Positions 1,351 to 63,870 of a stretch of 64,000 nucleotides of DNA are shown one piece after another (the first letter of the stretch is position 1; every line of letters starts with the position of its first letter). This DNA is from Tetradesmus obliquus (taxonomy: Eukaryota; Chlorophyta; Chlorophyceae; Sphaeropleales; Scenedesmaceae), in the NCBI GenBank assembly GCA_030272155.1, contig CP126201.1:1966501-2030500 (forward strand). Reading direction: 5' to 3'. The translations under genes and the position numbers were made by a program. The notes below the pieces were generated by a model. The model was not told the origin of the DNA. It saw only the letters and a list, made by a program, of their open reading frames with translations, and did not search any database.

Positions 1351-2859
1351 GTTGCATGCCAAGATGTCGGCAGCTGCAGCCGCAGCAGCAGCGGCCCTCT
1401 AAAGCCATCAATGCCATTAGCAGCAGCGGCAGAGGAACATGCCAAGCTGAAGCCTGGCCAGTCACCACAGGCGCAACACTACTCAACCAGCAGCATTGCA
1501 GCTGTGCCTGCTGCCTCACTTCTTTGGGGCTTCCAGAACCGCCAGCTTGAAAACAGCTACCAGGCGGCTGCATTCAGCAGCTCCAATGCACTGGATGTGG
1601 CATCAGTGGTGTATGCTGCTGCTGTCGGCTTGAGCTGCTACAACAATAGGAGTAGCAGCAGCGGGCAGCAGCAACAGCAACTGCTGCAGGTTGATCCAGG
1701 GCTGCTGTTCAGGAGTCAGGTTGTTGCTGTGGTGCTGTGTGTGGCAGGGCCGGTTGCGGTGCTGCTGCACAGGTGGCGGGTAGCAAGGAAGCTGCAAGCA
1801 CTGTGGCAGCAACAGCAGCAGCAGCAGCAGGTTGTTACAACAGCAGGTGACAGTGCACAGCATGCCTGCAGGACATCTTTGAATAGCTGCGCAGGTGTCT
1901 CTGCAGCACCAGCAGCTGGCAGCAGCAGCAGCAGCAGCAGCAGTGCGGCGCTGGCAGTGCAAGCCGAGCAGCTGCTGGTGGCTGCTGCGCACACAAAGCA
2001 GCAGCTGCTGCTGTGCTGGACTCTGCTGGTGCTGTGCTGGGGGCTGCTGGTGCTGCTTGGCGGCTGTGGGCTGATTGCTGAGCCATTTGTGGTGACAAAA
2101 CAGTGGAAGCAGGTTGGGTGGGCGGTTGATGTTTCGACCGTTGTGGCGTTTGCGCTTAAAGGGTGGATGAACCAGGTGGGTAGGACCCTGTGTTTGAGGG
2201 TGGGTGTTGTTGAGGGTGTCGACCGTTGCAAGTCGCAGCAGCGGCTCATTGCAAGAGCGAGCGTAAGCGGAGGGAGCAGCTTGTATTCCAAAAGTGGGTT
2301 GATTTCAGCGACACGACTTTTGCATAAAGTGATGAAGCTGCAGGCCCTCACCACTTGCTGCTGCTGCTGCTGCTCCTGCCCTTGTTCCTTCTGCCAAGTA
2401 GATGCCCACACACTGATTTCCGCCGTCGCTGCTGCTGCTGCCGCTGCTGCTACAGGTGCCCATCCGCTGGTTCCTGCCACTGCTGGCAGCTGAGATCTTG
2501 CCATCAACATGGTGCTGCCGCCACTGCTGCTGCCGCTGCTGCAGGTGCCCGTCCGCCGGTTCCTGCCACTGCTGGCAGCTGAGATGCTCATCAACGTCCT
2601 AGGAGCCTTAAAGCACGGCCTGCCGCTGCCGTGGCTGCTGCCCATGAACACTTGCTGCTGCTGTTGCTGCTGCAGGTGCCCATCTGCTGGTTCCTGCAGC
2701 TGCTGCTGCAGGCGCCAGTTGGCTGATTCCTGCTGCTGCTACCTGTCGTGGTCGCTATGCACCTGCTGCTGCTGCTGCCCCTGCAGTTAACCATCCGCTG
2801 GTTCCTGCCTCTGCTCAGCAACAAGACACTCATCAATATGCTGCGGCCGCTGCCGCTGC

Positions 2860-2907
<48 letters not shown>

Positions 2908-3422
2908 AGGTGCCCATTCGCTGGTTCCTGCTCCTGCTCGGCAGCGAGATGCTCATCAATGTCCTTGGGGCCCTCAAGCACGGCCTGCCGCTGCCGTGGC
3001 TGCTGCCCTCAAACACTTCTGCAGCTGCTGTTGTTGCCGCAGGTGCCCATCTGCTTGTGCCTGCCGCTGCTGCTGCAGGCGCCATTCGGCTGGTTCCTGC
3101 TGCTGCTACCTGTCATGGTAACAAGAAACCTGCTGCTGCTGCCCCTGCAGGTGCCCATCCGCTGGTTCCTGCCCCTGCTCGCCACTGAGATGTTCATCAA
3201 CGTTTTGGGGGCCCTCAAACACGGCCTGCCGCTGCAGGTGCCTATCCGCTGGTTCCTGCCTCTCCTTGGCAACAAGCCACTCAGCGGCATGTTGCTGCTG
3301 CTGCCACTGCTACAGGTGCCCATCCGCTGGTTCCTGCCCCTGCTCGGCAGCGAGATGGCCATCAACGTCCTTGGGGCCCTCAAGCACGGCCTGCCGCTGC
3401 CGTGGCTGCTGCCCATGAACAA

Positions 3423-3476
<54 letters not shown>

Positions 3477-3811
3477 AGGTGCCCATCTGCTGGTTCCTGC
3501 CGCTGCTGGGCAGCGAGACACTCATCAACATGCTGCTGCCGCTGCTGCCGCCACTGCTGCTGCTGCTGCTGCTGCTGCAGGTGCCCATCCGCTGGTTCCT
3601 ACCCCTGCTTGGCAGCGAGATGGCCATCAACGTTCTAGGAGCCCTCAAGCATGGCCTGCCACTGCCGTGGCTGCTGCTGCGCTACAGCTGCTGCACGCTG
3701 CTGCCGCTGGCACTGTTTGGGCTGCAGCAGGTGCAGGGCAGGGCGCGGTTTTGTGTGCGGCATGGGGTGCGGGTGCAGGGCAGGCTGCTGCCGCTGCCAA
3801 GCTGGGCTTAG
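1..3811 (+). CDS. 3' part of a large algal membrane protein gene (partial, 5' end outside window)
   Basis: Exons proposed: 1-340 (already open at the left edge), 735-2175, 3581-3811. The first ends in a phase-2 donor (GTGAGG at 341). The second has a pyrimidine-rich acceptor at 734 and ends at GTGGGT with phase 0. The last starts after a CTG tract and ends at TAG 3809-3811. The frame is continuous, giving KGWMNQ joined to VPIRWFLPLL. The protein is rich in Ala, Ser and Gln runs and has several hydrophobic stretches in its second half (LLFRSQVVAVVLCVAGPVAV, LLLCWTLLVLCWGLLVLL, the VPIRW exon), so a multi-pass C-terminal membrane region is likely. It resembles, from memory, the large algal proteins annotated as polymorphic-outer-membrane-like; no catalytic motif is visible and the function is unknown. 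The final exon has about ten upstream copies, so the choice of the last one is inferred from its stop codon and longer reading frame. Confidence 0.55.
2454..3580 (+). repeat. Tandem 5'-edge copies of the terminal exon of the membrane protein gene
   Basis: About ten diverged copies of the terminal exon's beginning (coding VPIRWFLPLLGSEM and a following NVLGALKHGLPLPW) precede the real exon at 3581. Copies start near 2454, 2544, 2674, 2789, 2909, 3040, 3150, 3236, 3316 and 3478. Most are preceded by a CTG tract ending in CAG, so each keeps an acceptor-like site. The longest tracts are about 2861-2909 and 3425-3478. Confidence 0.85.
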
Positions 3812-6918: not shown

Positions 6919-9292
6919 TCATGTCAAAACTGCTTTCATGTCAAAGCTCTCTGTCAACAACTTGTGCAGCTGCTCTGCAAGGTCAGCACTGCCGCTGCCT
7001 GCTGATCGCTGCATCAGCTGCTGCACAGCATCTGTGCTGAGCTGGCACAGCAGTGCTGCGCATCCAGCACTGCCCTGCTGCACAGCCGCCTGCAGCAGCT
7101 GCACCACAGCTGTGCTGCTAAGCAGTGCTGCTCCTGGAAGCTTGAGGATGTCCTGGGTGATGGCAGCACTGCCCTGCTGCACAGCTGCTAGCAGCAGCTG
7201 CTCTACGTTACTGACGTCAATCAGCGCTGCTGCTGGCAGGCGGCAGAAATCGTCCACACACCGCGTCAGTCCAAGATTCACTGACGCATGCAGCAGCTGT
7301 GACACAGCCTCCACACTTAGCTGCTGTGCTGCTGCCAGCCTACAGAGGCTGTGCACATGTCCAGATAACAGGTCGTGGTCGCCAGCTCCCTTCTCTACTG
7401 CAGTCTGCAGCAGCTGCAGTACCTTGTCCGTGCTGAGCTGCTCGACTGCTGGCAGCTTCAGCAGGTAGAACGTGCACTCTTGCCTGCCCTGCTGCACAGC
7501 TGTTTGCAGCAGCTGCACCACAGCGTCAGTGCTCAGCTGCTGCGTTGCAGGCAGCTCTCGCAGCATACATGTGAGGCAGTGCTCATCGCCATGCACCACA
7601 GCAGTCTGCAGCAGCTGCAGCAGATCTGCAGTGCTGAACTGCTGCGCTGCAGGCAGCTCCAGCAGCAGCTCAGCGCATGTTGACCTGCTGAGCAGCGCAG
7701 CTGTTTGCAGCAGCTGCAGAACCACGTTTCTGCTCAAACCTTCTGCTGCTTGCTTGAGCTGATACCACTCCCAATGCAGCCGCTCCATATACACGCTGTT
7801 GCCGCTTTCTAGAGCAACAGCTATGAGCATCTGCAGCAGCACCTCCAGAGTAGGTGCATTCATGTGCTGCTGCACCAACCGCAACCCCAGCATGTAGCTA
7901 GCTGCATTTGCGTGCTGGCGCCTGGCTGCTGTGGAGAGCAGCTTGCGCAGCAGCTGCGGCTCCGCTGGCAAGCTTCGCGCTGCTACGCCTGCTGCTGCTG
8001 CTGCTGTTGAAAGGAAGATGCAGTTCATGGCTAGCTGCAGTAGATCACGCGTCGTGAGGTGGGGCTGCAGCTCCCTCAGGAATAAAACCTCCTCACGGCG
8101 AGTCTGCACTTGCAGGCACAGGAGAGTGCAGGCAGAGAAATGAAATTAAGAGAGGGGAGTTACATGTGGGTCCTGGCACCGTCTTGGATGGTATGAGCCA
8201 CAACAGGTTGAACACAGGTCTGAGACCAGAAAAGGAGAGTGAGCACCGTAAAACACAATGTCACAGCAGTGGGCAACTGCCAGGTGAGGTGGGGCTGCAG
8301 CTCCCTGAGGAACGAAATCTCTTCAAAGCGAGTCTAGCAGCAGGCACAGAAGAGAGCAGAAGGAGACAGCGCATGCAGAGAGATCAAAACGCGTTGCTGC
8401 AGTGGCGAATGGAAGGCGATTCAAGGTAGCAGGCTGTAGTAGCCCCTGCTGTGGGTGCTGCACTAAGAACAGTCTGGTCACTGCCTGCCATGCTGTCGAC
8501 AGATCAAAGCTTAGGTAGCTGTGCTGGTGTCTGCTAGAGGAGCACATGATGTATGGTCCTTGCTGTTTATTAACAAGGATTGCATAGGGACATACCGTAC
8601 AGTGCTGTGGTGCGTAGTATCAAGAGCTACTATGTGACGGCAGACTGAAGCCAGCTGTGCCACCCTAACCAAGATGTATGCTGAGATGCAGCTATGATGC
8701 AGATGCATTGCCTGCAGCTGTTGTGTGCTGAGGTACTTACCGCTGGCTGAATGCTTGGGCAGCAAATGACCACTGCAGCTTCTGGCATGTCAGTCTGCAA
8801 GCCCAGCTCCTGCTGAGCCTGCACCCACACCTCCACTCCTGCCACCATGCTGTGTGCTGCATGTACCAGCTGCACGTAGGTCACTGTTACTCCAGCTGCT
8901 AGCAGCTGCTTCGCCCACTGCAGCGGAGGAGCAGGGATTTGCAGTGCGCGCTCAGCCACACCAGCAGCAGCTGCTGCTGAAGGCGTATGGCCCAGAAGCC
9001 ATGTGACTGCCAGCAAGCGCTGCGCCAGCGCCTTTCCAGCCGGCCTGGCATCAGCAAGAGTTGCTTCTGCTGCCTCTGTTACTCCCAGTGGTGCTGCTGC
9101 GCCTACTACTGCTGCAGATGCAGCAGCTGCTGCATCTAATGCATCCAGCAGCATGCTACCATCCTTCGGGAGCAGTTCAAGGCTGATGCTTCGAAGCTGA
9201 CGGCTGCTGGCTGCAAGGCAGGCCAGGCCCTGCAGGCCCAGCTGCTGGCAGCAGTAGGGCAGAACACGGAACAGTGCTGCATCGCTAGGCAT
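6919..9292 (-). CDS. Alpha-helical repeat protein with F-box-like N-terminus (two exons)
   Basis: Exon 1 is 9292-8741 (donor GTAAGT, phase 0) and exon 2 is 8103-6919 (acceptor CAG before ACTCGCCGTGAGG). The total is 578 aa. The start at 9292 (MPSDAALFRVLPYCCQQLGL) is chosen because the paralogue at 13751 begins at the same place; the frame is open further upstream to 9505. Residues 1-50 (LGLQGLACLAASSRQLRSI) resemble the helix pair of an F-box. The C-terminal 390 residues carry about eight 34-36-residue repeats of the type LLQTAVQQGxxxCxxxLLxLPAxxxLSTDxV, recalling ankyrin or other two-helix repeats. It is probably a protein-interaction scaffold, perhaps a ubiquitin-ligase adaptor; this is inference. 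The same architecture occurs at 13751-16090 in inverted orientation. Confidence 0.7.
8285..8338 (-). repeat. Copy of the 5' edge of exon 2 of the helical-repeat gene
   Basis: On the minus strand this intron sequence reads AG, then ACTCGCTTTGAAGAG, then a stretch coding FLRELQPHLT, matching the start of exon 2 at 8103. It lies upstream of the real exon and keeps the AG dinucleotide. Confidence 0.75.
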
Positions 9293-9803: not shown

Positions 9804-12268
9804 ATGAGCGGGCCATACAGCGTTCCTCCTGCAGGCTATCCAGCCTCGAACGGCATGCAGGGGCATCAGGCAGCAGCAGGGCCCCAGTTTGGCATGCATG
9901 CAGCAGCAGGAGCTGGCTACTACCCTCCAGCGCCACAGCCTGGCCTTGGAGGGTACCCAGCACAACAGCAGCAGCCTCAGCAGTATCAGCAGTATTATCA
10001 GCCCCAACAATATCAGCAGCCTCAGCAGTACCAGCAACCGCAGCATTATCAGCAGCAGTACCAGCAACCCCAGCAGTACCAGCAGCAGTACCAGCAACCC
10101 CAGCAGCAGATGCATCATGGCGGCAACAATAGAGTTGTGGGTAGGTGCAGTGCTTGCATGCATATGTGCTCATAGGGTCTGCATCTTGCAGCAGCTTGTT
10201 TCACCTGCTTTCTGTTGGTTTCAAGTCACCTGGCGTACCCTGCACTGCTAGCAGTGCCTCGACACTCACACATGCACATGCGCATAACCTTCTGCTGCTG
10301 CTGCAACTGCTGTTGCTGCTGCCCTGGGTGCGCAGTGGTGTCGCCCCAGTTCTGCATGCCTCAGCAGACCGTGCTGGTGATGCAGGAGCAGGCAGGCTTT
10401 AAAAGCGACGACTTCACCATCACCGATGCCACAGGTGTGTATGTGTGTGTGTGGTAGCACGTGCTGCGCAATGCATGACAAAGCATGGGTGTAGTGCTCA
10501 AAGCAGCAGGAGTAGCTGGAAGAAGCAGAAGATGGAAGTGCTGCATGCACCTGGCTGCACACATATGCAGCTGCTATTCTTTGGCTTGCTGGCATGAACA
10601 CCAGCATCAGCAGCACACCTGCATGACCTGCAACCTGCATTTTGCTTGGCTTAGGATTGCTGATGTTGTTAGTGTCAAAATAGAGCAAGCCATGTCCCCC
10701 TTAATAATTAATAGCCGCACTCTGTCGCACTGAACATACATCCCAACATTTGTGCTGCCGCCGCTGCATTTGCCGCTGCGATTGCTCCCAGGCCGCCCTA
10801 TCTTCAAGCTGTCTGCTGCTGTGTTCTCCATCGGCAACAAGCGCCAGCTGCTGGATGCCTATGGCACCCCTCTACTGCACATGGAGCGCAAGATGATGAG
10901 CCTGCATGGCACCTGGCTGCTGCTGCGGCCTAGCGATGGAGCCAAACTTGCCGAGCTGAAGTCCTCCCTGATGTCGCTGACACCCTGTGAGTCCCTTGTA
11001 CACCGTTCTGTTGTTGCCCGAGTGCCATGGAGTATGTGGCGGTGCATCTGGTGCAGGGTTTGGACGCCAAAGTGTGTGTTATGCGCCTGTTTGGCGGCGC
11101 ATGCTGTTGTCGCATTGTGGCGCGCATATGGAGCTCAAGATGATGAGCCTGCATGGCACCTGGTTGCTGCTGCGGTCCAGCGATGGAGCCAAACTTGCCG
11201 AGCTCAAGTCGTCACTGATGTCGCTGACACCCTGTGAGTTGCCTGCTACATTACATACTGCTACATCAAATACACTGTGCTGCATTGTTGCTCTAAGACC
11301 TATGCAATAAAGCATTCAAGTACCAAAGGCATTGCTGCCGTTTCCCTGACATTTATCTGATGCCTGTCTGCTGCCACCCCTGCTGCTGCTGTTGCTGCTG
11401 CTGCTGCTGTTCTTCCGTGCTGCAGCCATCAAGGTGTACTTGAACGATGGGGACAAGGAGCCAGACTACGTCATCAAGGTGAGTTGTTGTGGCTTGATGT
11501 TGCTGTGGCTTGATTGGTGATTTGATGATGTGATTATATGATGGAGACAAGGAGCCAGACTACGTCATCAAGGTGAGGCAGGGCCCATTGCTGCTACCTT
11601 GCACCAGACACAAATTTGCACGGCCCGTAGGCTTTTTGTTGACCTGCCGCGCGCGCCCGCACATGTGTTATCCTGCCTGAGCTTTGTGATGAAATCAGCC
11701 TGTTTTCCACACTGTAGAGGTGGCTGACGCACTGCTGCTGCTGCTGCTGCTGCAGGGTGACTTCCGCAGCAAGCGCTTTAGCATCTGCCAGCGCACCCAT
11801 GGCAGCGATGTGCCCATCGCACAGGTGCAGAAGGAGAGCCGCTTTGCCAATAGCACTGCCTTCCTCATGTGAGTCCCCGGCTAGCGCAGCAGAAAAGGCG
11901 TGCAGGGTATTTGACAATTTTTACAAATTTTTACAAACATGCCTAGCTGTACTTGCATGCTGGTGTGTACATGTAGTACTAGCGCTGTACGTTTCAACCG
12001 TTGCTCGCTGTACCCAACCACTGAGAACACCAGCATGTAGGGTCTGTCGTTACCATTTTAAGAAGTCACTGCCTGAAAGCCTTTGCGTGCGAGGATGCTG
12101 ACATCAGCTGCCGCCGCTGCTGCCACTGGCTTGTTTGTTACCTGTCCCAACAGGAGCATGGTGACTGATGCTCAGAAGTACTTTTTGACGATCGAGCCTG
12201 GCGTGGATGCCGCCTTTGTGGTGGCACTGGCCACACTGTGCGACGAGATCTACAATGACAAGGAGTGA
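9804..12268 (+). CDS. LURP-one-related (DUF567/LOR) protein with Q/Y-rich N-terminus
   Basis: Six exons: 9804-10140, 10336-10434, 10792-10986, 11426-11478, 11756-11868, 12154-12268; 912 nt, 303 aa, all phases agree. Residues 1-112 are low complexity, rich in Gln, Tyr and Pro (repeated QQYQQPQQ), a prion-like tail. The rest is a LOR domain: FKSDDFTITDATGRPIFKL, LDAYGTPLLHMERKMMSLHG, IKVYLNDGDKEPDYVIKGDF and the closing YFLTIEPGVDAAFVVAL. This family has the tubby-like beta-barrel fold with a central helix; plant members are tied to defence and membrane-lipid binding, but the role in algae is unknown. I took ATG 9804 because it begins the composition typical of the tail; an in-frame extension reaches 9717 without a strong start. 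Family assignment is confident. Confidence 0.9.
11126..11240 (+). repeat. 3'-edge copy of LURP-one exon 3 in the following intron
   Basis: A near-identical copy of the last 105 or so bases of exon 3, coding MMSLHGTWLLLRSSDGAKLA to LTPC, with its GTGAGT donor, lies in intron 3 downstream of the real exon (10792-10986). Confidence 0.9.
11539..11580 (+). repeat. 3'-edge copy of LURP-one exon 4
   Basis: The end of exon 4 (coding GDKEPDYVIK) and its GTGAG donor recur about 100 bp downstream in the next intron, almost unchanged. Confidence 0.85.
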
Positions 12269-12400
12269 GGAGGAGTGACAAGGGTTGAGGCTCATCGCTG
12301 GCTGATGCTTCACTGCCTGACGAGATGTACAATGACAAGGATGACAAGCAGTGATAAGGAGTGAGGAGCGAGGCTCAGCGCTTGCCGATCCTGCAAGTGC
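12269..12400 (+). repeat. Copy of the LURP-one terminal exon end beyond the stop
   Basis: The stretch coding DEIYNDKE plus stop and about 50 bp of 3' sequence recurs at 12319-12400 as GACGAGATGTACAATGACAA followed by a similar trailer. It is a duplication of the gene's 3' end. Confidence 0.75.
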
Positions 12401-13520: not shown

Positions 13521-13750
13521 CTTTGGGATCGCAAATGTTCAGCTTCATTCGCGGTTTGAGGTTCAGACTGCAGCTCCAGGGGGTTCAGACTGCAGCTCCA
13601 GGGTGCTTACGCCGGATTGGCAAGGGGCTGCCAGTAGCTGCAGGGCACTCTTCGCGCGGAAAGCATGTAGCGCGCGTGTGAGGAAAGCCATTGCAGTGTC
13701 AACTGCCTACTGCTCGTCTACACTTTGAACTGCGTTCGACAACTTTGTTC

Positions 13751-16090
13751 ATGTCTGGCGACGCAGCAATGTTCGATGCTCTGCCGTGTTGCTGTCGGCA
13801 GCTGGGCCTGCAGGGCCTGGCCTGCCTGGCAGCCAGCAGCAGGCAGCTGCGAAGCATCAGCCTTGGACTGCTTCTAAAGGATGCTAGTATGCTGTCGGAT
13901 GCTTTGGAAGCAGCTGCAGCTGCATCTGCAGTTGCAGCAGCAATAAAAAGCACCACCACCACACCCACTGCAAACAGAAGATGCACGACAAGCAGCCCTC
14001 GCTGATGCCAGCAGCGCTGACAAGGTGCTGCAGCAGCACTTGATGGCTGTCACCTGGCTGCTCATACTACCACAGCAGCAGCTGCAGCAGACGTGGCTGA
14101 GCGTGCACTGCAGATCCCAGCTGTGCCGCTGCACTGGGTGAAGCAGCTGCTAGCAGCTGGCATGATAGAAACCTATGCGCACCTGATACAGGCAGCACAC
14201 AGCATGGTGGCAGGAGTGGAGGTGTGGGTGCAGGCACAGCACGAGCTGCGCTTGCACACTGACATGCCTCCATCTGCAGCAGCCATCTGCTGCCCCAGCA
14301 CATGGTTAACAGTGAGTGGCTTGGCACACAGCAGCTGCAGACAGTGCATTTGCTTGGTGGCTTCATTTTAGGCGCTTAAGCAAACAACACATTTGAATTG
14401 CATTCTTCAGCAGTCCTGGGCACTGTTCACAACAGCCCCGCACCACACATCCCAATCTGTTCCCTTGTGTATATGGTAGGGACCACACACCAGTAACCTA
14501 TGCTCCCCATGGAAGAACAGCACACGTAGCTGGGCTCCTTAAATGGGTTTCGACAACATGGCAGGCAGCGACTAGTCTATTGCCAGAGCAGCGCCTACAG
14601 CAGGAGCTGTTGCAGCATGGGCGCTGCTGGTTTAAGTGCGTTGCAGTTGCCCTATGCAGTGATGAGTTTGTGTCGCTGCCTGCGCTCTCTTATGCCGACT
14701 GCAGACGAATGGCCCTTTGGGACCTCGCTGGAAGGAGTGGAGGGAGCTGCAGCCTCACCTCACCACGCCTGAGCTGCTGCAGCTGGCCATGAACTGCAGC
14801 ATGCTTACAACAGCAGCAGGCGTAGCAGCGCGCAGCTTGCCAGCGGACCTAGAGCCGCAGCTGCTGCGCAAGCTGCTGTCCACAGCAGCCAAGCACAAGC
14901 ACGCCCGCGCAGCTAGCTGCATGCTGGGGTTGCCGTTGGTGCAGCAGCACTTGGATGCACCCACGCTGAAGGTGCTGCTTAGGATGCTGATGGTGGCTGT
15001 TTCAGAAACAGGCGACAGCAGATACATGGGACAGCTGGCGCGGCAATGGAATTCACTGAGGCCAGCAGCAGAAAGCATGGCCAGTGATGTGGTTCTGCAG
15101 CTGCTGCAGACAGCTGCGCACCTCAGCAGCTCACCATGCACAGAACAGCTACTACGGCTGCCTGCAGCGCAGCAGTTCAGCATTGAAGACGTGAAGCCGC
15201 TGCTGCACACTGCTGTGGTGCATGGCGAGGAGCACTGCTTCGTTTTGATGCTTCAGGAGCTGCCTGCAGTAGAGCATCTCGGCACAGTCACTGTGGAGGG
15301 GCTGCTACAGACAGCTGTGCAACATGGCAGGTACTTTTGTGCCTACTTTCTGCTGGGGCTGCCTGCAGCCGAGCTCCTCAGCACTGGTGAGGTGCTGCTG
15401 CTGCTGCAGAAGGCACTGCGGAAGGGAGCTGATATGCCCAAGCACATGGCATGGCATGTATGCTGCCTCTTCAACCTGGTGTGGAGGCTGTTGACAGAGA
15501 TTTTTCTATTAAATTAGCATGCGGCATGTAAGTATGCTGTAGGTATGCCGTGCTGCAGCTGCTGCATGTGGCAGTGAGGTCTGGCATGAAAGGCTGTGCA
15601 GAGGCGTTCTGCCGGCTGCCAGCAGCAGCATTATTAGGCAGCGATGAAGTTGCGCAGCTGCTTTCAGCGGCAGCTAAACGCAGTGCTGAGGCATGCATAA
15701 CACCACTGTGCAGGCTGCAGGGAGCAAGCTCACTGAAATTTTCAGGATGAGATCTGGTAGTTTCTATCCTTTCCAAGGGCCGGTCTGCGTTGCTTTTTTC
15801 TCTGCCCAATGCACCTGTCATTGGCTCCCCAACGGGCGAAGTTACTTGTTTACCTTCCAAAATGTGAACAGCAACGCAGTAGCACAGCTACTGCAAGCAG
15901 CTGTAGAGCACCGCAGCCCAGGTTGTGTAGGGAAGGTCATAGACTTGCAGCCAACAGCAGAGTGCTGCAGGCAGTTGCCAGCAGATGCAGTTTCAGCGCT
16001 GCTGCATGCGGCAATCAAGCACAGCACCTTTGAGATGACACCCAGCCATTCAAAAACATGGTGCTGGCCAGAGCACCAATGCACCTCCCT
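13751..16090 (+). pseudogene. Decayed paralogue of the helical-repeat gene, inverted relative to 6919-9292
   Basis: It opens with MSGDAAMFDALPCCCRQLGL, then LGLQGLACLAASSRQLRSI as in the minus-strand gene. The frame breaks near 13970 and again near 14090, where AERALQIPAVPLHWVKQLLA resumes in a third frame. The second-exon equivalent runs from about 14718 (GPRWKEWRELQPHLTTPELL) to a stop at 15517. Further repeats follow in other frames at 15550-15750 and 15850-16050, separated by insertions near 15485-15545 and 15735-15855. With at least three frame changes a functional product is unlikely, although extra introns or sequence errors cannot be excluded. Confidence 0.7.
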
Positions 16091-16863: not shown

Positions 16864-16880
16864 TAGCCATGCTCGCGTCC

Positions 16881-18967: not shown

Positions 18968-19010
<43 letters not shown>

Positions 19011-19111
19011 TGGTGCTATCAGTAGCTGGTAGATGACAATGCCGATGGCCACAAGCTGCGCGCTGGTGCCTGTTATGAAGAACCAACTGAGCTCAGATAG
19101 CGCCCGGATCT

Positions 19112-19154
<43 letters not shown>

Positions 19155-29612: not shown

Positions 29613-29618
29613 TGTTTT

Positions 29619-48100: not shown

Positions 48101-50367
48101 ACCTGCAGCTGCAACACAGAGAGGTCTGTTACAGGGGTGGGCAAGCAGCAGCAGCAGCAGCAGCTGTAGTTAGTGTTTGTTACACATGGGGGCCAGGCAA
48201 TTCCAGCCTCTTGAACTGGCGAATCATACCAGCCAGGTAGGGTTTCAAGTCCAACTCCGTCCACCACCACCATTCCGACGGAACAGCAAGTCTGCAGCCT
48301 CACTGCCCGCCTAGCAGCAGCGAAGAAGAAGAGGGGTTACACGGTGTGCACAGGCAACTACGTTGCAACGAACACCCGAAAATCTGGAACGCCGCAGATG
48401 ATTCAGCAAAACAGGCTGTCACTCAAGAAGACTCCTAGCAGCAGCGGAGAGAGGTCGGTTACAGGGGCGGGCAAGCTATCGCCCTAGAGCGAGTCACTTG
48501 CCCCTCTTTCAGCTCACATATCATGAGAACCCGACAGCAAGCCACAAGCAGCAGCAGCAGCAAAGGGTTGACAGTCTTGCACTCAGCCAGCTTCCTGGTT
48601 CACTCTGTACAGCGATCCGCCTTAGCTCAGCTGGTCAGAGCGCACGGCTGTTAACCGTGAGGTCACCAGATCCTGGTAGGCGGGGTCAAGGCCGCGCGAG
48701 AGAGAGGTCTGTTACAGGGGCGGGCAAGGTATCGCCCTAGAGCGAGTCACTTGCCCCTCTTTCAGCTCACATATCATGAAAACCCGATAGCAAGCCGCAA
48801 GACGCAACCAAAGTAAAAATCCAGAGGGGAGAGAGGCTTGTTACAGGAGAAGGCAAGCTATCACCCGAGAGTGAGTCACTCGCCCTACTTTCAGCTCACA
48901 TATCGTATGAACTTGATAGCAAGCCACAAGACGCCACCAAAGAAAACTCCAGAGGCGAAGAAGAGAGGTTACACGGTGGGCACAGTCAACTACGTTGCAA
49001 AGAACACCCGAAGATCTGAAACGTCGCAGATGACTCAGCAAAACAGGCTGTCACTGAAAGGAGACTCACCCCAGAAAGTCTCTGTGTGTGTGACTCGACA
49101 CATGGCCTTGCAAGCAAAGCCGCCAGTCACATCACACGCAATGTTGATGCTAAACAACAGAAGGACTAGTGTAATCAGTGTCAGTGACAGCAAGCTGCAC
49201 TTCATGCAGTGCAGCGGGCGGGCTGAATCCACAGACCAGTACCCACCAGCAGAAAAACATCTGGCAGGCGGTGGCCTGAGGCGACACACTGGGAAGGAAG
49301 AGCAGAGAACAAGCCAGATGCTGTAAGGACCGTACAACTACATTTTGCAGCAGTTATACGGGCAACTCACAGCTCCTGCAAAGCAAGACGGCTAGCTCCG
49401 GCGTATCAGAAGCACACAGGGAAAGCAAGTACATGCAGTGAAAAGAAGGCCATCACCGCCGCACCACACACAGAAGAAGAGGGGTTACACGGTGGGCACA
49501 GGCAACTACGTTGCAACGAACACCCGAAAATCTGGAACGTCGCAGATGACTCAGCAAAACAGGCTGTCACTCAAGGAGACTCGACCCCAGAAAGTCTCTC
49601 TGTGTGTGTAACTTGACATATGGCCTTGCAGGCAAAGCCGTCAGTCACAGCACACGCAGTGTTGATGCTAAACAAAGGCAGGACTAGTGTAAACAGTGTC
49701 AGTGACAGCAAGCTGCACTTTATGCAGTGCAGCGGGCGGGCTGAACCCACAGAACAACACCCACCAGCAGAAACACAGCCTGGCAGGCGGTGGCCTGAGG
49801 CGACAAACTGGGGAGAGAGAGCAGAGAACAAGCCAGCTGCTGCAAGGGCCGCACAACTACATTTTGCAGCAGCGATACACGCGCGCGAGAGAGAGGTCTG
49901 TTACAGGGGTGGGCAAGCTATCGCCCTAGAGCGAGTCACTTGCCCCTCTTTCAGCTCACATATCATGATAGGCGAGAGAGGTCTGTTACAGGGGTGGGCA
50001 AGCTATCGCCCTAGAGCGAGTCACTTGCCCCTCTTTCAGCGGGAGAGAGAGAGGTCTGTTACAGGGTTCAGCTCACATATCATGAGAACCCGATAGCAAG
50101 CCACAAGATGTAGCCAAAGTAAAACTCCAGAGGCATCTTGCAGCCCCTACCTCCCCATAAACCAACAAGTACATGCAGTGCAGCATGTGCGAAGTGCAGC
50201 ACGAAAAGCAGCAGGGATAGGCACCACACACAAACCATTACCACGGAACACAGTATGCCAGGCAATAAAAGGCTCCAGAGGCAACGCTGCTGCTGGCGTG
50301 TGGCGCGCAGCCTTCTCAGCAGTGTTCAGCACAGTATTGCATGGTCTCAGCAGGGGATGTAGCTCAG

Positions 50368-50400
<33 letters not shown>

Positions 50401-51662
50401 GGGGGATCGAAGCCCTCCATCTCCAAGTCACATGACACAACCCAGTGCAAAGTACACGTGGCTATGGCTGCGGGCTGTGCACAACCAGCAGAGGTCATCC
50501 ACAATCTCACGGATGACTCTCCAGGTTGGTGGCAGAAATGAATGAATGACTGAATGAGCTACGCATGGCGTGTTAAAACTCGCCACCCGCGTAAGTTAAG
50601 GGAGGGGGTGTGTGTGACGATGAGGATACCCCATGCGCCTTCACACCTCCTACCATGGTGGCAGAAATGACCATTTTGCAAGCTGGTGCTGCTTCATCTG
50701 CAGGCTGACTGCTCTTGGTGCTCACCACGGCCTGCCAAGCGTAGCTTTTGGCACAACATGAGCCGCAACGTGTGGCCATGCTGGTGTCTGCCTCCTGGAT
50801 GCGCGCCCTGCATCTCCTTGTACAGCATAGAATTCTGTGTTACCCGGCCCACTCCTTTCTACTTGCACACACTCCACTGAAATCAAAAATTACCATTTTC
50901 ACCAATTCAAAAAGCTTCGCACCTTGTGGCTACGCTGGTGTCCTCCTCCTGGATGCGCCCCCGCATCTCCGTGTACAGCGTCACCCAGCCAACTTCAGCC
51001 AAGACGCATTCACAGAGCATTTCACTTCAACCAGTAACAATACAACAACTTTTACAAATCATTACAAAAACCACACCTGGTAGCCACGCTGGTGTCCTCC
51101 TCCTGGATGCGCGCCCGCATCTCCGTGTACAGCGCGTCCTGCAGCTGCTGCGTGTCTGCCATGGCTGCAGCCGTGTACGCGTTCTCCTCCTTCAGGTACG
51201 ACAGCACTGCAAGATCCTTGCGCGCATCGTCCCGCAGCCTGCAAGCAGGCATTTGCAGAATGTTAGGGACTGTCATTTTTCCATAATACAGTGAGAAACG
51301 ACAGCACAGCATGTCCCTGTGCTCATCATCAAGCAGCCTGCAGGCAAGCAGGCACGGAAGAGACACAGTCAGGTGCGACAGCACGGCAGGCATCCTTTTG
51401 ATGTTTGCCACGTGCTGTGCGGTGCGGTGCTGTGCCAAACTGGGGATGCAGAGCAAGCAGCATTGCATCCTCACCAGTAGTAGTCGTCTGTGCGGGTGTC
51501 GTTGTGCGTGACCAGCTCCTTAGGCTGCTTGGTGGGTGTAGGAGGCACCAGCACGCCTGCAGGTTTCACATACAGCAACACGACCCACGTTCGAGCCGCC
51601 ACTTTGCTGTGCATGAGCACGGACAACATCTGCGGAGACTGCAGACTACCAGTCAGTTGCAT
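34921..51662 (-). CDS. Oligopeptidase B-like prolyl oligopeptidase family serine peptidase, 19 exons
   Basis: Exons: 51662-51475, 51238-51077, 47993-47807, 47188-47099, 46625-46527, 45675-45586, 44385-44231, 43144-43009, 41087-40892, 40280-40188, 39998-39916, 39654-39566, 39323-39220, 38636-38542, 37264-37090, 36564-36477, 35973-35920, 35631-35527, 35035-34921; 2304 nt, 767 aa, all phases agree. N-terminal domain: [58 protein letters not shown]. Propeller: [58 protein letters not shown]. Hydrolase: [38 protein letters not shown], nucleophile Ser in GRSAGG, Asp in [10 protein letters not shown], His in GAGHFS. It cleaves peptides after basic residues. The first 35 residues could be a targeting peptide; an upstream exon cannot be excluded. 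Exon 8 encodes a Ser run from a CAG-type repeat. Introns hold about 45 exon-edge copies. Confidence 0.93.
36815..37045 (-). repeat. Two 3'-edge copies of the catalytic-serine exon of oligopeptidase B
   Basis: Copies of the exon end coding [20 protein letters not shown] with GTGAGC-type donors lie near 36815-36905 and 36945-37040, downstream of the real exon 37264-37090. Confidence 0.9.
37330..37600 (-). repeat. Two 5'-edge copies of the catalytic-serine exon
   Basis: Copies near 37415-37340 ([20 protein letters not shown]) and 37580-37505 ([19 protein letters not shown]) lie upstream of the real exon. The first repeats the GRSAGG nucleophile motif and keeps a TTGCAG acceptor. Confidence 0.9.
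38637..39070 (-). repeat. Three 5'-edge copies of the [12 protein letters not shown] exon plus a long CAG tract
   Basis: Copies ending near 38750, 38877 and 39061 encode [15 protein letters not shown] or [15 protein letters not shown]. Acceptor AG is kept in each. A CAG run of about 25 units occupies 38891-38966. Confidence 0.9.
39656..39719 (+). repeat. CAG/CTG microsatellite, about 21 units
   Basis: Uninterrupted CAG repeat abutting the acceptor of oligopeptidase B exon 12. On the coding strand it is (CTG)n directly before CAG. Confidence 0.95.
40555..40750 (-). repeat. Two 3'-edge copies of oligopeptidase B exon 9
   Basis: Copies of the end coding [15 protein letters not shown] with GTAAGT or GTGAGT donors occur at about 40555-40605 and 40690-40745, downstream of the real exon end at 40892. 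Confidence 0.9.
40750..40858 (+). repeat. 18-bp minisatellite of CAG/CAA units
   Basis: About six head-to-tail copies of an 18-bp unit, GCAGCAGCAACAGCTGCA, lie between the nearest exon copy and the real exon 9. Confidence 0.9.
41088..41690 (-). repeat. Five 5'-edge copies of oligopeptidase B exon 9
   Basis: Units of about 115-120 bp repeat the exon start ([20 protein letters not shown]), each with an acceptor AG at about 41202, 41322, 41435, 41551 and 41671. The last is the most decayed. Confidence 0.92.
41915..42930 (-). repeat. Six 3'-edge copies of oligopeptidase B exon 8
   Basis: The exon end coding [16 protein letters not shown] and QQT recurs with donors near 42848, 42539, 42408, 42268, 42052 and 41918. 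Every copy keeps the GT donor dinucleotide (plus-strand CACCGTCTGCTG). One copy has been interrupted by a mobile element at 42708-42820. Confidence 0.92.
42698..42830. mobile_element. Short mobile element (about 113 bp) with 10-bp target-site duplication
   Basis: The element at 42708-42820 is flanked by exact direct repeats AAGCCCACTG (42698-42707 and 42821-42830). It shares GAATGAGCTACGC, AAGTTAAGG, GATGAGGATACC and CCTCCTACCAT with the second copy at 50542-50656. A sister exon copy near 42233-42290 reads straight through the equivalent position (AAGAAGCTCACTGCCA), so the empty site is visible. There is no coding capacity and no clear terminal inverted repeat; it is a SINE-like or MITE-like non-autonomous element. 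Confidence 0.82.
43300..44100 (-). repeat. Four 3'-edge copies of oligopeptidase B exon 7
   Basis: Copies near 43303-43400, 43541-43630, 43772-43865 and 44000-44095 encode [20 protein letters not shown] and RIQDVEYR. All four keep a GT donor (GTAGG or GTGGG). Confidence 0.93.
44386..45112 (-). repeat. Six 5'-edge copies of oligopeptidase B exon 7 with CTG-tract acceptors
   Basis: Each copy encodes [17 protein letters not shown] or a variant and follows (CTG)n CAG. Acceptors lie near 44501, 44586, 44702, 44836, 44979 and 45103. Some tracts are interrupted by CGG units. A 25-unit CAG run at 45108-45182 ends the array. Confidence 0.93.
45676..45975 (-). repeat. Three 5'-edge copies of oligopeptidase B exon 6
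   Basis: Copies of the start coding [12 protein letters not shown], each after CTTGCAG, at about 97-98-bp spacing upstream of the real exon at 45675. Confidence 0.93.
46130..46526 (-). repeat. Three close and one decayed 3'-edge copy of oligopeptidase B exon 5 (102-bp unit)
   Basis: Copies of the exon end coding [11 protein letters not shown] with GTGAGTGGC donors repeat at exactly 102 bp (46525, 46423, 46321, 46219 region). A degraded fourth lies near 46120-46160. The frame stays open through the array. Confidence 0.93.
46626..46925 (-). repeat. Two 5'-edge copies of oligopeptidase B exon 5 (124-bp unit)
   Basis: Copies of the exon start ([12 protein letters not shown]) with their upstream intron sequence repeat at 124 bp, with acceptors near 46749 and 46873. 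Confidence 0.92.
47255..47300 (-). repeat. 5'-edge copy of oligopeptidase B exon 4
   Basis: Minus-strand CTGCAG then GTGGGATGCTGCGAGACATC repeats the acceptor and first codons (VGCCETSP) of the exon at 47188. Confidence 0.9.
47575..47665 (-). repeat. 3'-edge copy of oligopeptidase B exon 3
   Basis: The exon end coding [17 protein letters not shown], with its GTGAGGG donor, recurs about 230 bp downstream of the real exon end at 47807, slightly diverged. Confidence 0.9.
48030..48115 (-). repeat. 5'-edge copy of oligopeptidase B exon 3
   Basis: Minus-strand CTGCAG GTACGAGGGCTACTAC resembles the real exon start (YQGYYYYTR), followed by EEGQQY-like and HCRR-like codons with small indels. Confidence 0.88.
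48324..50110. repeat. Nested repeat cluster with conserved hairpins inside oligopeptidase B intron 2
   Basis: Two families interleave. One (GAGAGAGGTCTGTTACAGGG) contains a hairpin, GGGCAAG...TCGC...GCGA...CTTGCCC, seen at 48469-48503, 48722-48757, 49911-49945 and about 49994-50030, and decayed at 48851-48884. The other starts GGTTACACGG and reaches AACAGGCTGTCACT; it occurs at about 48335, 48969 and 49484, the last two as part of a roughly 515-bp tandem duplication. No protein-coding capacity is evident. Confidence 0.82.
48616..48685 (+). tRNA. tRNA-Asn-like gene (GTT) with collapsed T-loop, probable pseudogene
   Basis: It folds as acceptor TCCGCCT/AGGCGGG (7 pairs, one G-U), D arm GCTC/GAGC, anticodon arm CACGG-CTGTTAA-CCGTG with anticodon GTT, and T stem ACCAG/CTGGT closed by only three bases (ATC). 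The normal seven-base T-loop is missing. It lies antisense in intron 2 of the oligopeptidase gene and abuts a hairpin repeat unit. Confidence 0.65.
50353..50425 (+). tRNA. tRNA-Ala (anticodon CGC)
   Basis: 73 nt without intron: acceptor GGGGATG/CATCTCC, D arm GCTC/GAGC around AGTTGGTA, anticodon arm CGCGC-TTCGCAT-GCGCG, variable AGGTA, T arm GGGGG-ATCGAAG-CCCTC, discriminator A. All stems pair with two G-U pairs in total. It decodes GCG alanine codons. It sits antisense within oligopeptidase B intron 2. Confidence 0.93.
50528..50670. mobile_element. Second copy of the short mobile element with 14-bp target-site duplication
   Basis: The element at 50542-50656 is bounded by exact direct repeats GGTGGCAGAAATGA (50528-50541 and 50657-50670). 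It aligns over its whole length with 42708-42820 at a rough 75-80% by eye. Confidence 0.82.
50750..50985 (-). repeat. Two 3'-edge copies of oligopeptidase B exon 2
   Basis: Copies at about 50765-50830 and 50925-50985 repeat the exon end coding [18 protein letters not shown], in diverged form, downstream of the real end at 51077. Confidence 0.88.
51300..51345 (-). repeat. 5'-edge copy of oligopeptidase B exon 2
   Basis: Minus-strand CTGCAG GCTGCTTGATGATGAGCAC gives LLDDEHRDM, resembling the real exon start LRDDARKDL at 51238. Confidence 0.85.
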
Positions 51663-52848: not shown

Positions 52849-52876
52849 CTTCCTGGTTTGAAACGTGTTGGCAGCC

Positions 52877-53564: not shown

Positions 53565-56500
53565 TTGAACAATATGCAAGCGTCGCTTGCGCAGCGGCAA
53601 TGCGTGCATACCAGGCAGCAGTGGGGCTCTGCTTCACACCACCACCAGCAGTGCTCAGGCAGCCAGCTACGACTAGCAGCAGCTCCTCTCGGCAGCAGCT
53701 TAAGACAGCAGCTAAAACGGCAAAGATGTAGCTTAGGTTCTGGGTGTGTGGCGCGCTCGGTGCCGGAGAAAACCCAAGAGCAGCAGCAGCTGGGCAGTAG
53801 CATAGAGCAGAATGGCGCACCTGCGGAGCCACCCCGCAGGCAGTTCATTACTGCAGACGCCATGACAACCATGCAGGAGGAGCAGGAAAAGGAGCTGAAG
53901 GCAATGACCTCAGACATCCCCGTGCGGGAGCAGCGGTTTGAATGGCTGGCGTTCTGGGTCGCTGCAGCAGTGGCGTTTGGTGCAGGCATCTGGTGGGTTG
54001 TGCTGGAACCATCTGCTTGCAGCCGATACAGCAGCAGGGACACTTGCAGTTCTCTCAGCCATAGGATCATGCATGTGGACATGTGTTCAAAGCAGTTGCA
54101 GGAAGCACTGTGCTGAGCTCAGCAGCGCAATCTTGCGGTGTGCGCTGTACTCCTGTGCATCTCCTCCTACTTGCAGCGGTCTAGTATGTGCGCTAGCAGG
54201 TCTGGCACAGCGGATCTTGATAACTGTCAGCAATGAATGCCCTTTTAGTTGTGTCCGAGCTGAGCACACCAGCGTGCACACAATGAAGCACAGGATCAGC
54301 ATCAGGCTTTTCAGCAACAGCTGTGTTGTCTGGTAAACTTGTTTTCCTGCAGAGGGTGTTATTCATGCAAAGGGTGCTGTTCAGGAGCTACAGAACGGCT
54401 TCCCTGTAGCACCGTGTATGCTGTCCAGCTGTGCACCTGTTTCGTCAGGCAGTCTACATGCTTTGTGGGATTTGGTCTGAACACACGTGGAGGACAGGGC
54501 AGCGGCGCAGGAGTACTGTGCAGGACCTGCGGCCTTACCAGCAATATGGTGCTGTCTGTCTGAAGCTGTGCTGTCCTGCAAACGTGCTGCATGCCTGCAG
54601 GTATGTGGAGGGCAGCGAGAAGGCGCAGGAGTGCTTTGCAGGATGCCTGTCACACGTGTGCTGTGTGGATGAAACTGTGCTGTCCTGCAACCTGTTGTTT
54701 TTCTTCCTGCAGGTATGTGGAGGGCAGCGAGAAGGCGCAGGAGTACTTTGCAGGATACCTGCTGGAGCAGTCGCTGAGCATTGACAACCTGTTTGTGTTT
54801 GTGCTGGTCTTCAATTACTTCAAGACGCCACAGGCAGCGCAGCCCAAGGTGGGGTGCAAGGCAGCATGTAGCTTGCAGGAGTCTGTGGGATGCCGCACAG
54901 GCTGCACAGCAGGCAGTTTGCAGGAATGCGTTGGTGCTCATGTGTAGCGGTAGGTCGGCGCTTTGGGATGGCGCAGGTGGGCAGCTGCGTGCACCACTGG
55001 CGGTCCTTATGCAGTGCATCCGCTGTAGCACTCAGTGGCACAGCAACACAGCTAGCAGCCATGCCAACAGCAACATGCCTGCAACATCAGCATCACACTT
55101 GTGACGATGCAAGATGTGCTGCATTGCACATCTCGTTGCTGCGGCGATTGCCAAGCGCCATTGCGACTTGAGCACCATGTGCCAACCCCTGCACAAGTGC
55201 ATGTGACTGTTGCTTGCTGGGTGCCTGGTCATTGCTTGTTTGTCCTGGCGTACACTTACCGTCGAGTAGGTAGCTCTGACAGGCTTGTGTTTCCCTGCAG
55301 ATCCTGACCATCGGCATCCTCTCGGCGGCCGTCCTGCGCGGAGGTATGTAGCTAAAGGACCTGCCTTTTCATCACATGTTGATGCTAGCACTAGCATACC
55401 CACTCGCTGCATCCTGCTGCCTCTTGTGCCTCTGCGCCTCCTGCACCTGCACCCGCAGGTGCTCACGTTTGGTATCATCACAGCTGCTGTGCTGCGTGCA
55501 GTGATGATCCTGCTGGGCACGGAGCTCATCCAAAAGTTTGAGCCCCTGCTCATCGGCTTCGCGTTCATCCTGCTGTACAGCGCGTACGGGCTGTTATTTA
55601 ACGAGGAGGATGACGACGACGACCTGTCAGATAACGCCATCGTGAAGTTCTGCAGGAAGGTGGGTGCAGTAGACGTATGTGTTGAGTTGATGGGTGTAGT
55701 AAGTTATCTGCCGACCATGCAGCAGAGAGCGCACTGCCTGGCCATGGGAGGGTGTGAAGTCCGGTTCTCAAACAGCAGCCTGCACATGTCGTACGCGTCA
55801 CGCCAAACAAAGCACGCAGCTGCTTTTGATCACATTGTATGTTGTGCTCCTGTGTTGCACTGCCGCATCCCTGCAGTCGCTGCCCGTGAGCGATCGCTAC
55901 GCAGCACGGGACGTCTTAACCAGAGGCTCTGCAGGCTGTTGCTCATTGACTCATTGACTCACGCGCTCTGCACCTCTGCTGCATACCGTGCCGCTGTGTC
56001 TCCTTCACGCCTCGCCTGCAGCTGCTGCCTGTGAGCGACCGCTACGACGGCGTCAACTTCTTCAGCACAAACTCGGCAGGCTATTGCTGTCATTTAACAA
56101 TTCTCTAAACGTATCCTGCTGTCGCTGCTGTACTTCGTGCTGCACCCTGCAGCTGCTGCCCGTGAGCGACCGCTACTACGGCGTCAACTTCTTCACTGCC
56201 AAACCCTCCGTTCAACAGCTACTGCTGGTCCTCACCAACTCACATGCTCTGCCTGTTTCTGCTCTCTTCTGTGCAGCTGCTGCCCGTGAGCGACCGCTAC
56301 GACGGCGTCAACTTCTTCAGCACAAACTCGGCAGGAGTGCGCGTGGCGACGCCGCTGCTGCTCACCCTGGCAGTCATCGAGCTCAGTGATGTCGTGTTTG
56401 CAGTGGATTCCATTCCTGCGGTGTTTGGCGTCACGCTGGACCCTTTCATTGTGTACACCAGCAACATGTTTGCCATCCTGTCGCTGCGGAGCCTCTACAG

Positions 56501-60767: not shown

Positions 60768-61345
60768 TCAATCCACGAGCTCTGTGTCAAGAATTCTAGA
60801 CCGCAGCGTCAGCAGCCGATAGCCGCCGGGCTTGCCACTGCAGCCATGCACCCACTGTGTCCGCACGCCCACCAGCGCCCCAGGGGCCTCCTCCCAGGTG
60901 TCTGCGCTGGGCCTGAACAGGCCGTCCCGCCCCTCCTTGAGCCAGCGCATGACCAGCAGGCCGCGCTGCTTGGGCTTGGCATCACTGCGGCAGCAGCAGT
61001 TACATACAAAGGTGGATCAGTTGCATGTCTGATGTGTATGTGCCTCCTCCTTGAGCCAGCGCATGACCAGCAGGCCGCGCTGCTTGGGCTTGCGTCACTG
61101 CAGCAGCAACGGGGTGTGGGTATCAGCGCACACTTGTAGTACATGTTGCAAGTGACATGTAGCGCCACTGCGGCGCCGCGCGCTGATGAATCTTGGTCGA
61201 AAAAGGCATGCAGGCACCTCCAGCCAGCACTAGCGCTAGCACTGCAGTGCACCAACCCCATAAGGCAGCTGCATAGAGAGAGCACCTGCCACCCTCAGCA
61301 GCCAACCGACAGCGCAGATGCACACACACCAGGCCCACAGTCAGT

Positions 61346-61438
<93 letters not shown>

Positions 61439-61739: not shown

Positions 61740-61791
<52 letters not shown>

Positions 61792-63005: not shown

Positions 63006-63036
<31 letters not shown>

Positions 63037-63522
63037 TGATGATGATGATACGAGGACAGAAGGAAGGCAGGAGGAGCCCAATGGACAGCGGAGTTTTCCG
63101 GTGCTAGCAGCTTGTTCAACACTTCAAAGAACACCTGACTGTAACAGTAACAGCGCTGCCCACCTGAATGTACTCCACGCCGTAGTTCTTGTGCGTCGCA
63201 GGGCTGAGCAGGATGTCCTTGTGGCGCATTCAGTACACTAACAAAAGGCCTGAGCACTGCGAAACAACAGGTAACAAATAAGTAACAAATCATATTACAA
63301 AACCAAGCGCACCTGCATGTACTCCACGCCATAGTTCTTCAGCGTCGCCGGGCTCAGCAGGATGTCCTTGTGGCGCATGAAGGCGCTGCAGTGCGAGTGC
63401 AGCTCCGGGAACATGCTGGCGCACATGCGCTCAAACTTGCCGCGGTCCTTGGGGCTCACGCAGTACCACACCTTGGGCGCGCCCATGTGCAGGTAGTTGA
63501 TGCTGAACAGGTCAGCGTCCTC
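60768..63522 (-). CDS. JmjC histone lysine demethylase, KDM4/JMJD2-like (partial, 5' end beyond window)
   Basis: Three exons: 63522-63313, 62871-61439, 60984-60768; phases agree, stop at 60768. The first starts at EDADLFSINYLHMGAPKVWY; its leading Glu matches the iron-binding Glu of the KDM4 HxE motif, so the partner His should lie at the end of the preceding exon, outside. The second iron His is in NAGAYHAGYNLGFNCAEAVN. The family zinc ligands are retained: Cys in HSHCSAF, His in MRHKD, and CKC in VVRCKCD. The catalytic core should remove methyl groups from histone lysines using iron and 2-oxoglutarate. A 400-residue acidic, Ala/Gln/Ser-rich linker follows, then a conserved-looking end (KHFYMVQVLR, RGLLVMRWLKEGRDGLF). 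The N-terminal JmjN is not seen. Confidence 0.9.
61030..61105 (-). repeat. 5'-edge copy of the JmjC terminal exon
   Basis: Minus-strand CTGCAG then TGACGCAAGCCCAAGCAGCG repeats the exon start (DAKPKQRGLLVMRWLKE) with a one-codon change, upstream of the real exon at 60984. Confidence 0.9.
61343..61436 (+). repeat. Dinucleotide and tetranucleotide microsatellite (ACGC)n(AC)n
   Basis: Plus strand shows repeated ACGC then about 27 AC units up to the JmjC donor. On the coding strand the donor GTGAGT runs directly into (GT)n. Confidence 0.95.
62940..62985 (-). repeat. Short 5'-edge copy of JmjC middle exon
   Basis: Minus-strand TTGCAAG then CCAAGCAGGAGCGCAAAGAG resembles the exon start AKQEPNE at 62871. 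The acceptor has become AAG. Confidence 0.65.
63165..63240 (-). repeat. 3'-edge copy of the JmjC exon ending YGVEYMQ
   Basis: The end coding MRHKDILLSPAT and KNYGVEYIQ-like sequence recurs downstream of the real end at 63313, with a diverged donor region (plus-strand CCACCTGAATG). Confidence 0.9.
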
Positions 63523-63584
63523 CTGCGATGACGAAAAGCAGTAAAACGGGGGTTGACTCAGGCTGTTGCGGAGATAGTGCAAGG

Positions 63585-63870
63585 CACCAGGCGCGCCCAT
63601 GTGCGGGTAACAAATCAGTGTCCTCCTGCAGAGCGGCATATGGTTTGAAATGTGTTGTTTGTCAGTTGTGGCAGCAGTACCAGACCTTGGGCGCGCCCAT
63701 GTGCAGGTAATTGATGCTGAACAGGTCAGCGTCCTCCTGCAGATCGGCATCGTAATACATACAAGCATTGTGATGGTATAGTCTGGGTTGTGCAGGGTGG
63801 CCAATTGCTTGCCATGTGCAGGTAGTTGATGCTGAACAGGTCAGCGTCCTCCTGCAGGGCGGCAGATGTT
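63585..63870 (-). repeat. Three 5'-edge copies of the JmjC EDADLFSINYLH exon
   Basis: Copies with acceptors near 63629, 63740 and 63856 repeat the exon start. Two encode EDADLFSINYLHMG or EDADLFSINYLHM exactly; the nearest to the exon is shortened. Confidence 0.92.

Follow-up and report, generated by a model that had tools for sequence, protein, structure and literature searches.

A 64,000-nt stretch of the Tetradesmus obliquus genome (assembly GCA_030272155.1, contig CP126201.1, positions 1,966,501 to 2,030,500; referred to here as the window) was analysed for partial copies of exon edges that lie in the introns and flanks of its genes, and which are termed echoes here. These exon-edge copies were confirmed to be real and to be present beyond the window. 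In total, 51 splice-junction families with 98 distinct echo copies (i.e. copies at least 70 nt apart) were identified in the window, distributed over 12 gene models (a single gene being split among some of these), in agreement with the roughly 90 copies in at least nine genes counted in a preliminary description of the same sequence. Outside the window, 65 copies were found in eight of 18 additional stretches (0 to 26 per 10 kb, including a doubtful L014 copy located 1.4 kb from its partner). The earlier proposal that such events have been repeated over time is supported, and they are not confined to this region.

The sequence base consisted of the 64-kb window and twenty 10-kb stretches from C1-C3, 18 of which were kept (L017 is composed entirely of N and L021 was put aside as a satellite-like array), resulting in 19 loci. 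Genes were predicted using a hidden Markov gene finder, which was seeded with 17 window peptides and then retrained on its own sequence. The result was a set of 50 self-trained gene models, each with 300 or more coding bases and free of internal stops; their 364 introns show a donor consensus of CAG/GTGAG and an acceptor consensus of TGCAG/G. The seven model proteins scanned were supported by Pfam (sulfotransferase, JmjC, TerC, LURP-one, amino-acid transporter, VPS28 and SNF2).

The oligopeptidase B gene, located on the minus strand of the window, was shown to carry an extended series of such arrays. An acceptor echo array at 45639-45974 has its real exon start at ~45675 and upstream copies at 45771, 45866 and 45963 (period ~96), a donor array at 46117-46561 has its real donor at ~46526 and copies at 46424, 46322 and 46220 (period 102), and an acceptor array at 46569-46943 has its real member at 46625 and copies at 46749 and 46873. 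Further acceptor arrays are located at 38583-39074 (real member ~38636; copies 38749, 38875 and 39061, with homology ending near the splice consensus) and 41016-41675 (real member 41087; five copies upstream; period ~115), with individual acceptor echoes at 47164-47308 (real 47188, copy 47292) and 47927-48116 (real 47993, copy 48102). Donor echoes were observed at 40546-40959 (real 40891; copies 40694 and 40556), where all aligned differences are at third positions, and exon echoes at 50764-51134 (donor 51076; copies 50922 and 50768). Exon copy arrays occupy 41894-43075 (donor and acceptor edges; period ~134), 43301-44344 (period ~228) and 44332-45100 (with CAG/CTG runs; spacings 84 to 139), while an echo pair with an offset of 228 is present at 47565-47894 and two older echo families of the C-terminal exons at 36812-37584. 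The gene model that includes oligopeptidase B also contains intron-only local repeats at 48118-50134, with offsets of 85 to >500 and many repeats >90% identical.

The predicted oligopeptidase B (738 residues) was found to match a solved structure from residue 3 to residue 718, and exhibited 97% identity to the T. obliquus protein P0001 (OEZ85_005766), 88% and 75% identity to two Scenedesmus proteins and 76-79% identity to three others. When the echoes were removed, it aligned at full length with the proteins of its relatives, which lack the copies tested; the exceptions were seven residues added by the model near the 51-kb exon and insertions specific to single relatives. P0001 contains an insert corresponding to the translation of window copy 46749 and its spacer, which is missing from the aligned relatives and is probably indicative of an annotation error or an isoform. 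Other oligopeptidase B exons in the genome were at most 79% identical (C9; among the 26 matches listed), and P0001 is therefore best interpreted as an orthologue from another strain. As this protein contains one copy together with its spacer, an assembly error is unlikely, as had been argued previously from the divergence between copies. Judging from these alignments, copy 46749 probably predates the split of the two strains. The exons of a second oligopeptidase B gene (G000:C9:2282308-2284996) are 60-79% identical to those of the window gene.

Self-comparison of the window using BLAST returned 162 direct and 11 inverted pairs, and among pairs less than 2 kb apart at a score of at least 50 bits, 145 were direct and none inverted. 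A direct copy within 1.5 kb was detected at 45 bits for 127 of 671 exon-edge 72-mers (352 direct matches, 0 inverted), compared with eight of 124 exon-interior 72-mers. Local direct repeats were abundant and inverted ones nearly absent outside L021, which alone accounted for 28 of the 30 inverted pairs less than 2 kb apart. This stretch (C2:4500001-4510000) consists of dense direct and inverted repeats over ~7.5 of its 10 kb and appears to be satellite- or transposon-like. The exon-edge searches yielded 94 junction families with 306 members, and hence 212 echo positions; for these families, and for the 98 and 65 copies given above, the last acceptor or first donor was set as the real member.

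Since the real member was fixed by position in the family counts, the proposed direction rule (copies of an exon's 5' edge upstream, copies of its 3' edge downstream) was tested separately on anchored exons, i.e. those in which 40 nt or more are free of local duplication (321 of 414). At 45 bits, 5'-edge copies were located upstream in 33 cases and downstream in three, 3'-edge copies downstream in 42 and upstream in two, and no inverted match was observed for either edge. The rule was kept in 75 of 80 local direct matches, and the five exceptions were represented by the 10986/11233 pair, both members of which are called exons, and by an array at L022 3558-4309. At 36 bits, the corresponding ratios were 45/3 (5' edges) and 47/3 (3' edges), with two inverted matches. 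Because a duplication over an acceptor places the partial copy upstream and one over a donor places it downstream, the rule is the geometric outcome of direct duplication; it confirms duplication and is by itself no evidence of a special process.

The informative part is the excess over random placement, which rests mostly on five rich loci. Local repeats were grouped into 80 families in the 19 loci, with a predicted junction inside 62 of them, and the junction families numbered 65 once exon-seeded families were joined to the repeat set. For the null model, arrays were collapsed and one unit per family was placed at random within its own locus. Junction families represented 65 of the 72 junction-or-intron families, the other seven being intron-only (p 1e-12), compared with an expected junction share of 51%, or of 36% with the homologous segment as the unit, while exon-only families were depleted (2 versus 11.5 expected). 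Together with the 352 direct and 0 inverted exon-edge matches, these figures are consistent with the junction-straddling direct duplication put forward in the preliminary description; copies wholly inside introns or in inverted orientation, whose equal frequency had been named there as the contrary outcome, were few or hardly present. Among families at least 95% identical, 15 of 19 were junction families versus an expected 48% (p 0.005) or 33% (p 5e-5), depending on the unit definition. A per-pair null gave a smaller excess (acceptor plus donor 42 observed versus 17.5; intronic 37 versus 49), and was replaced by the family-level test because copy-copy pairs within introns were counted as intronic. 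Coverage by local direct copies peaked at the junctions of the 18 stretches (acceptors 0.11, donors 0.14) and dropped to 0.04-0.05 between 150 and 300 nt inside introns; these junctions include echoes mistaken for exons by the gene finder.

Junction families were present in eight of the 19 loci. Across the 19 loci, family density was associated with the simple-repeat fraction (rho 0.65, p 0.002), while no clear correlation was found with CAGCAG/CTGCTG density (rho 0.37, p 0.12) or with GC content (rho 0.20, p 0.42). The suggested link to a CAG-rich genome is therefore weak, and holds for simple repeats in general rather than for CAG/CTG.

Of 200 spacings between copies, in which the donor/acceptor twins of an array are counted twice, 101 measured 110-140 bp and 32 formed a second peak at 225-275. 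No frame preference was apparent, as the spacings were distributed as 71:72:57 modulo three, with 71 of 200 being multiples of three. Ungapped homology between real members and echoes had a median of 44 nt on the exon side and 16 nt on the intron side for acceptors, and of 41 and 7 nt, respectively, for donors. Among 152 adjacent pairs (spacing 60-300, exon at least 20 nt, spacer at least 30 nt), spacers were homologous in 77 (z>4) and not in 45 (z<2), so that the tandem unit straddling the junction, as originally envisaged, was recognisable in the former group and its spacer part was not in the latter. Six pairs qualified for an assessment of microhomology at the breakpoints. Among the matches listed, no mobile family of spacers was seen, and only CTG-type low complexity was matched elsewhere in ~254 kb.

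The GT or AG dinucleotide was retained in 90 and lost in six of the 96 echoes (out of 212) that match beside the junction, a choice that favours intact sites. Splice-site scores fell no more than one unit below that of the real site in 65 of these 96 echoes, with median scores of 6.0 versus 6.3 for echo and real acceptors, and 6.6 versus 6.7 for donors. In families aligned in detail, most copies are bordered by a splice site at just one end. Overall, the copies are not complete in-frame exons, although a few arrays do resemble whole-exon copies (e.g. L022 2513-3150). The suggestion that the copies may be a source of new splice variants is unsupported, as no evidence of splicing-in was obtained and the spacings do not favour multiples of three.

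The sequence evolution of the copies was examined in the 35 families that offered two or more usable copies. The private/shared, copy-order and four-gamete counts were made without the 2455-3677 array, junction-unannotated families and short-homology copies; overlapping donor/acceptor twins were also removed for the four-gamete counts and for the recount without L022 3618, and were subtracted by hand for the private/shared test. Changes private to one copy were distributed over codon positions 1:2:3 as 60:59:88, changes between the real exon and all copies as 13:9:35, and changes common to some members as 6:5:45. With overlapping families counted once, shared changes comprised 31 third-position and seven other sites, compared with 79 and 110 private ones (Fisher p 6e-6), and without L022 3618 these counts were 24/5 and 78/108 (p 4e-5). 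The third-position excess in pairwise differences is not explained by base composition, and its reading as a coding constraint on the copies was dropped after the private/shared split. Private changes are near neutral, and the sequences are best read as dead copies whose common variation would have passed through a working exon, whether exchanged with it or derived at the outset from different working alleles. Shared sites were not ordered along the arrays (contiguous in 5 of 41, versus 6.0 expected by chance), and four-gamete conflicts were observed for 19 of 50 site pairs, 15 of the 19 being derived from L022 3618, whose gene model is uncertain.

Exon-edge copies were also identified in other genes. 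On the plus strand, the LURP-one-related gene has donor-edge copies at 10877-11577 (10986/11233, both called exons, and 11478/11572), and a donor echo is located at 12234-12366 (12264/12341), with the donor dinucleotide lost in the echo. The TerC gene, also on the plus strand, carries acceptor echoes of exon YVEGSEKAQEYFAG at 54487-54761 (real 54712; copies 54600 and 54482) and of exon LLPVSDRYDGVNFF at 55861-56335 (real 56276; copies 56152, 56021 and 55876), and a 12-member plus-strand array of exon VPIRWFLPLLGSEMAINVLGALKHGLP with CTG runs is present at 2455-3677. On the minus strand, donor echoes of the amino-acid transporter gene lie at 18529-18821 (real 18771; copies 18652 and 18536), where the exon parts match and the spacers do not, followed by more, transporter-like exon-edge copy arrays at 18875-20377. 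Other minus-strand features include an old donor echo in a sulfotransferase-like gene model (29417-29791; 29637/29428), an acceptor echo in a JmjC-like gene model (60932-61108; real 60984, copy 61097) and acceptor and donor echoes of exon EDADLFSINYLHMGAPK and its neighbour (63158-63864). Outside the window, an MRS2-type magnesium transporter gene at L023 335-4601 has five acceptor members. Its raw model contains a 54-residue insertion at an echo, which is lacking in four aligned relatives. No Tetradesmus-named match was present among the best 120 of 175 for this protein, suggesting that the gene may be missing from annotations.

Two inverted paralogous genes in the window (6919-9292, minus strand; 13582-15629, plus strand) are 74-77% identical over stretches of 700-800 nt, and an acceptor echo (8054-8359, minus strand; 8064/8294) was detected in the minus copy only. 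In the corresponding intron of the plus copy (14222-14690), no echo of the 8064 exon was found, the best match of 13 nt being within the range of shuffled sequence. Elsewhere in the window, exons at 29626-30289 and 32880-33735 are duplicated ~3.3 kb apart with 92-93% identity; the intron between them aligns over 40 nt only, suggesting that intron turnover is fast.

Recurrent local duplication, leaving dead copies that undergo some exchange with the working exon, is considered the best explanation of these data, at slightly better than even confidence. Small direct duplications were shown to keep arising in genic DNA, with half of them placing their copies 110-140 bp apart, and the molecular step would probably be replication slippage or unequal exchange between direct repeats, because inverted copies are nearly absent. 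Where such a duplication crosses a junction, one copy would stay on the exon, corresponding to the form found in the proteins of relatives, while the other would be left in the intron as an additional exon edge, complete with a splice site of its own. This arrangement was shown for oligopeptidase B and MRS2, and presumably applies to the remaining genes. Splicing would then have to use the outermost site. Exchange between copy and exon would keep the exon part recognisable while the intron part decays, and would help to explain the pile-up at junctions.

Several observations weigh against this explanation. The gene models are ab initio and were trained on the very sequence that was analysed, and 61 of the 65 junction families sit in five loci (L009, L022, L023, L026 and the window). 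In young families, the junction excess is less pronounced (15:4), and coverage climbs again to 0.095 and 0.14 at 300-400 nt in the ~70 longest introns. Among the 45 of 152 pairs whose spacers do not align, some retain an exon identity of 97-100% (over 33-41 nt), a combination not predicted by a simple recent tandem unit. In this non-homologous-spacer class, real-versus-copy differences were distributed as 14:13:64, a bias that exceeds that of a neutral copy beside a constrained exon and is not fully explained by dead copies with some exchange. Without L022 3618, four-gamete conflicts were reduced to 4 of 14, and shared sites were contiguous in 4 of 19 cases versus 3.3 expected by chance. Nearest copies were weakly less diverged than farthest ones (20 clusters versus 13, with two ties), and a time series in which the nearest copy is the youngest was unsupported.

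Plain neutral tandem duplication, which would occur anywhere, be purged from exons and be visible for longer at junctions, with neither preference nor exchange, is viewed as a tentative alternative, clearly short of an even chance. Introns are short (collapsed median of 273 nt) and units measure ~120, with approximately half of the junction-or-intron placements touching a junction by chance; in addition, the junction excess is partly a matter of visibility, because exon-derived sequence stays alignable. The depletion of exon-only families, the loss of the splice dinucleotide in six of 96 echoes, the similar offsets of most intron-only and intergenic families and the derivation of most four-gamete conflicts from one family all agree with neutral decay or duplication. 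However, the excess remains in families at least 95% identical, which represent the fairer test but a small subset; the third-position bias is strong in shared changes and much less so in private ones; and the non-homologous-spacer class shows a first/second-position divergence of only ~3.5%, even though its spacers no longer align.

A stronger proposition, in which junctions are preferred for local duplication and decoy edges are in continuing exchange with the working exon, appears unlikely. Under this proposition, intron length, synonymous variation and splice-site choice would evolve together, and the spliceosome would routinely have to select, from several sites of equal strength, the one lying outermost.

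It is very improbable that the copies are functional, as alternative exon ends or as regulatory decoy splice sites under selection. Echo sites are as strong as real ones, one copy is annotated as coding in P0001, and first/second-position divergence is low in one class; yet frame preference is absent, private changes are near neutral, the relatives lack the insertions, copies mostly have a one-sided splice site and the paralogue intron has no detected echo. Still less credible is an assembly artefact, or a collapse of two haplotypes that placed allelic exon edges side by side: copy and real exon often differ at synonymous sites, as alleles would, but families of three or more copies are common, one spacing is favoured, orientation is direct only, and P0001, which is no second copy in this genome, encodes the same copy with its spacer. 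Least probable of all are introner-like mobile elements inserted with long target-site duplications. In some pairs, the repeat is confined to exon edge and splice consensus, and these flank a non-homologous spacer with a donor at its start or an acceptor at its end. However, homology to the adjoining unit was detected for 77 of 152 spacers, only CTG-type low complexity matched elsewhere among the matches listed, and the repeated part is tens of bases long, usual target-site duplications being shorter.

If recurrent local duplication at exon edges is genome-wide, it would provide a wealth of natural experiments, each placing a real splice site ~120 nt from a near-identical decoy, and with these a direct test of splice-site choice, as the cell must tell real sites from strong look-alikes. 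It would also offer a series of stages from duplication through decoy to a possible new intron, where earlier papers have dealt with single cases or small sets. For annotation, a warning is given by one published oligopeptidase B model, which takes an echo copy as coding sequence.

Small duplications within genes are known as duplicated exons or entire introns in coding genes, and Zhuo et al. reportedly described, in PNAS in 2007, whole human introns that had arisen from tandem arrays. It would share with the present system the presence of tandem copies beside introns, through which alternative splice sites become available, whereas here the copies are partial exon edges on a fixed side. According to the preliminary description, no standard feature type is known that covers the pattern. 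This is too broad with regard to the single event, as a tandem duplication across an intron-exon boundary is known from the potato RdRp gene, where one event in one gene made a new intron (PMC4974935). Unlike that case, 98 copies are present here in 64 kb, donors are also involved, and no evidence of copy use was obtained. For a genome-wide pattern of duplicated exon edges, no report was found in the literature searched, subscription papers and preprints being mostly outside it. In Drosophila, intron gain via tandem duplication of exonic proto-splice sites (the Rogers model) is similar in that a local direct duplication copies splice signals. There, an exonic unit with a proto-splice site gives rise to a new intron (PMC2891723), whereas the unit described here spans a pre-existing junction and makes the intron that is already there longer. 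Introner elements represent large-scale production of splice-site-bearing sequence (PMC9860276); they copy themselves into many genes, whereas the copies described here are local and gene-specific among the matches listed. The type of event is known from single cases.

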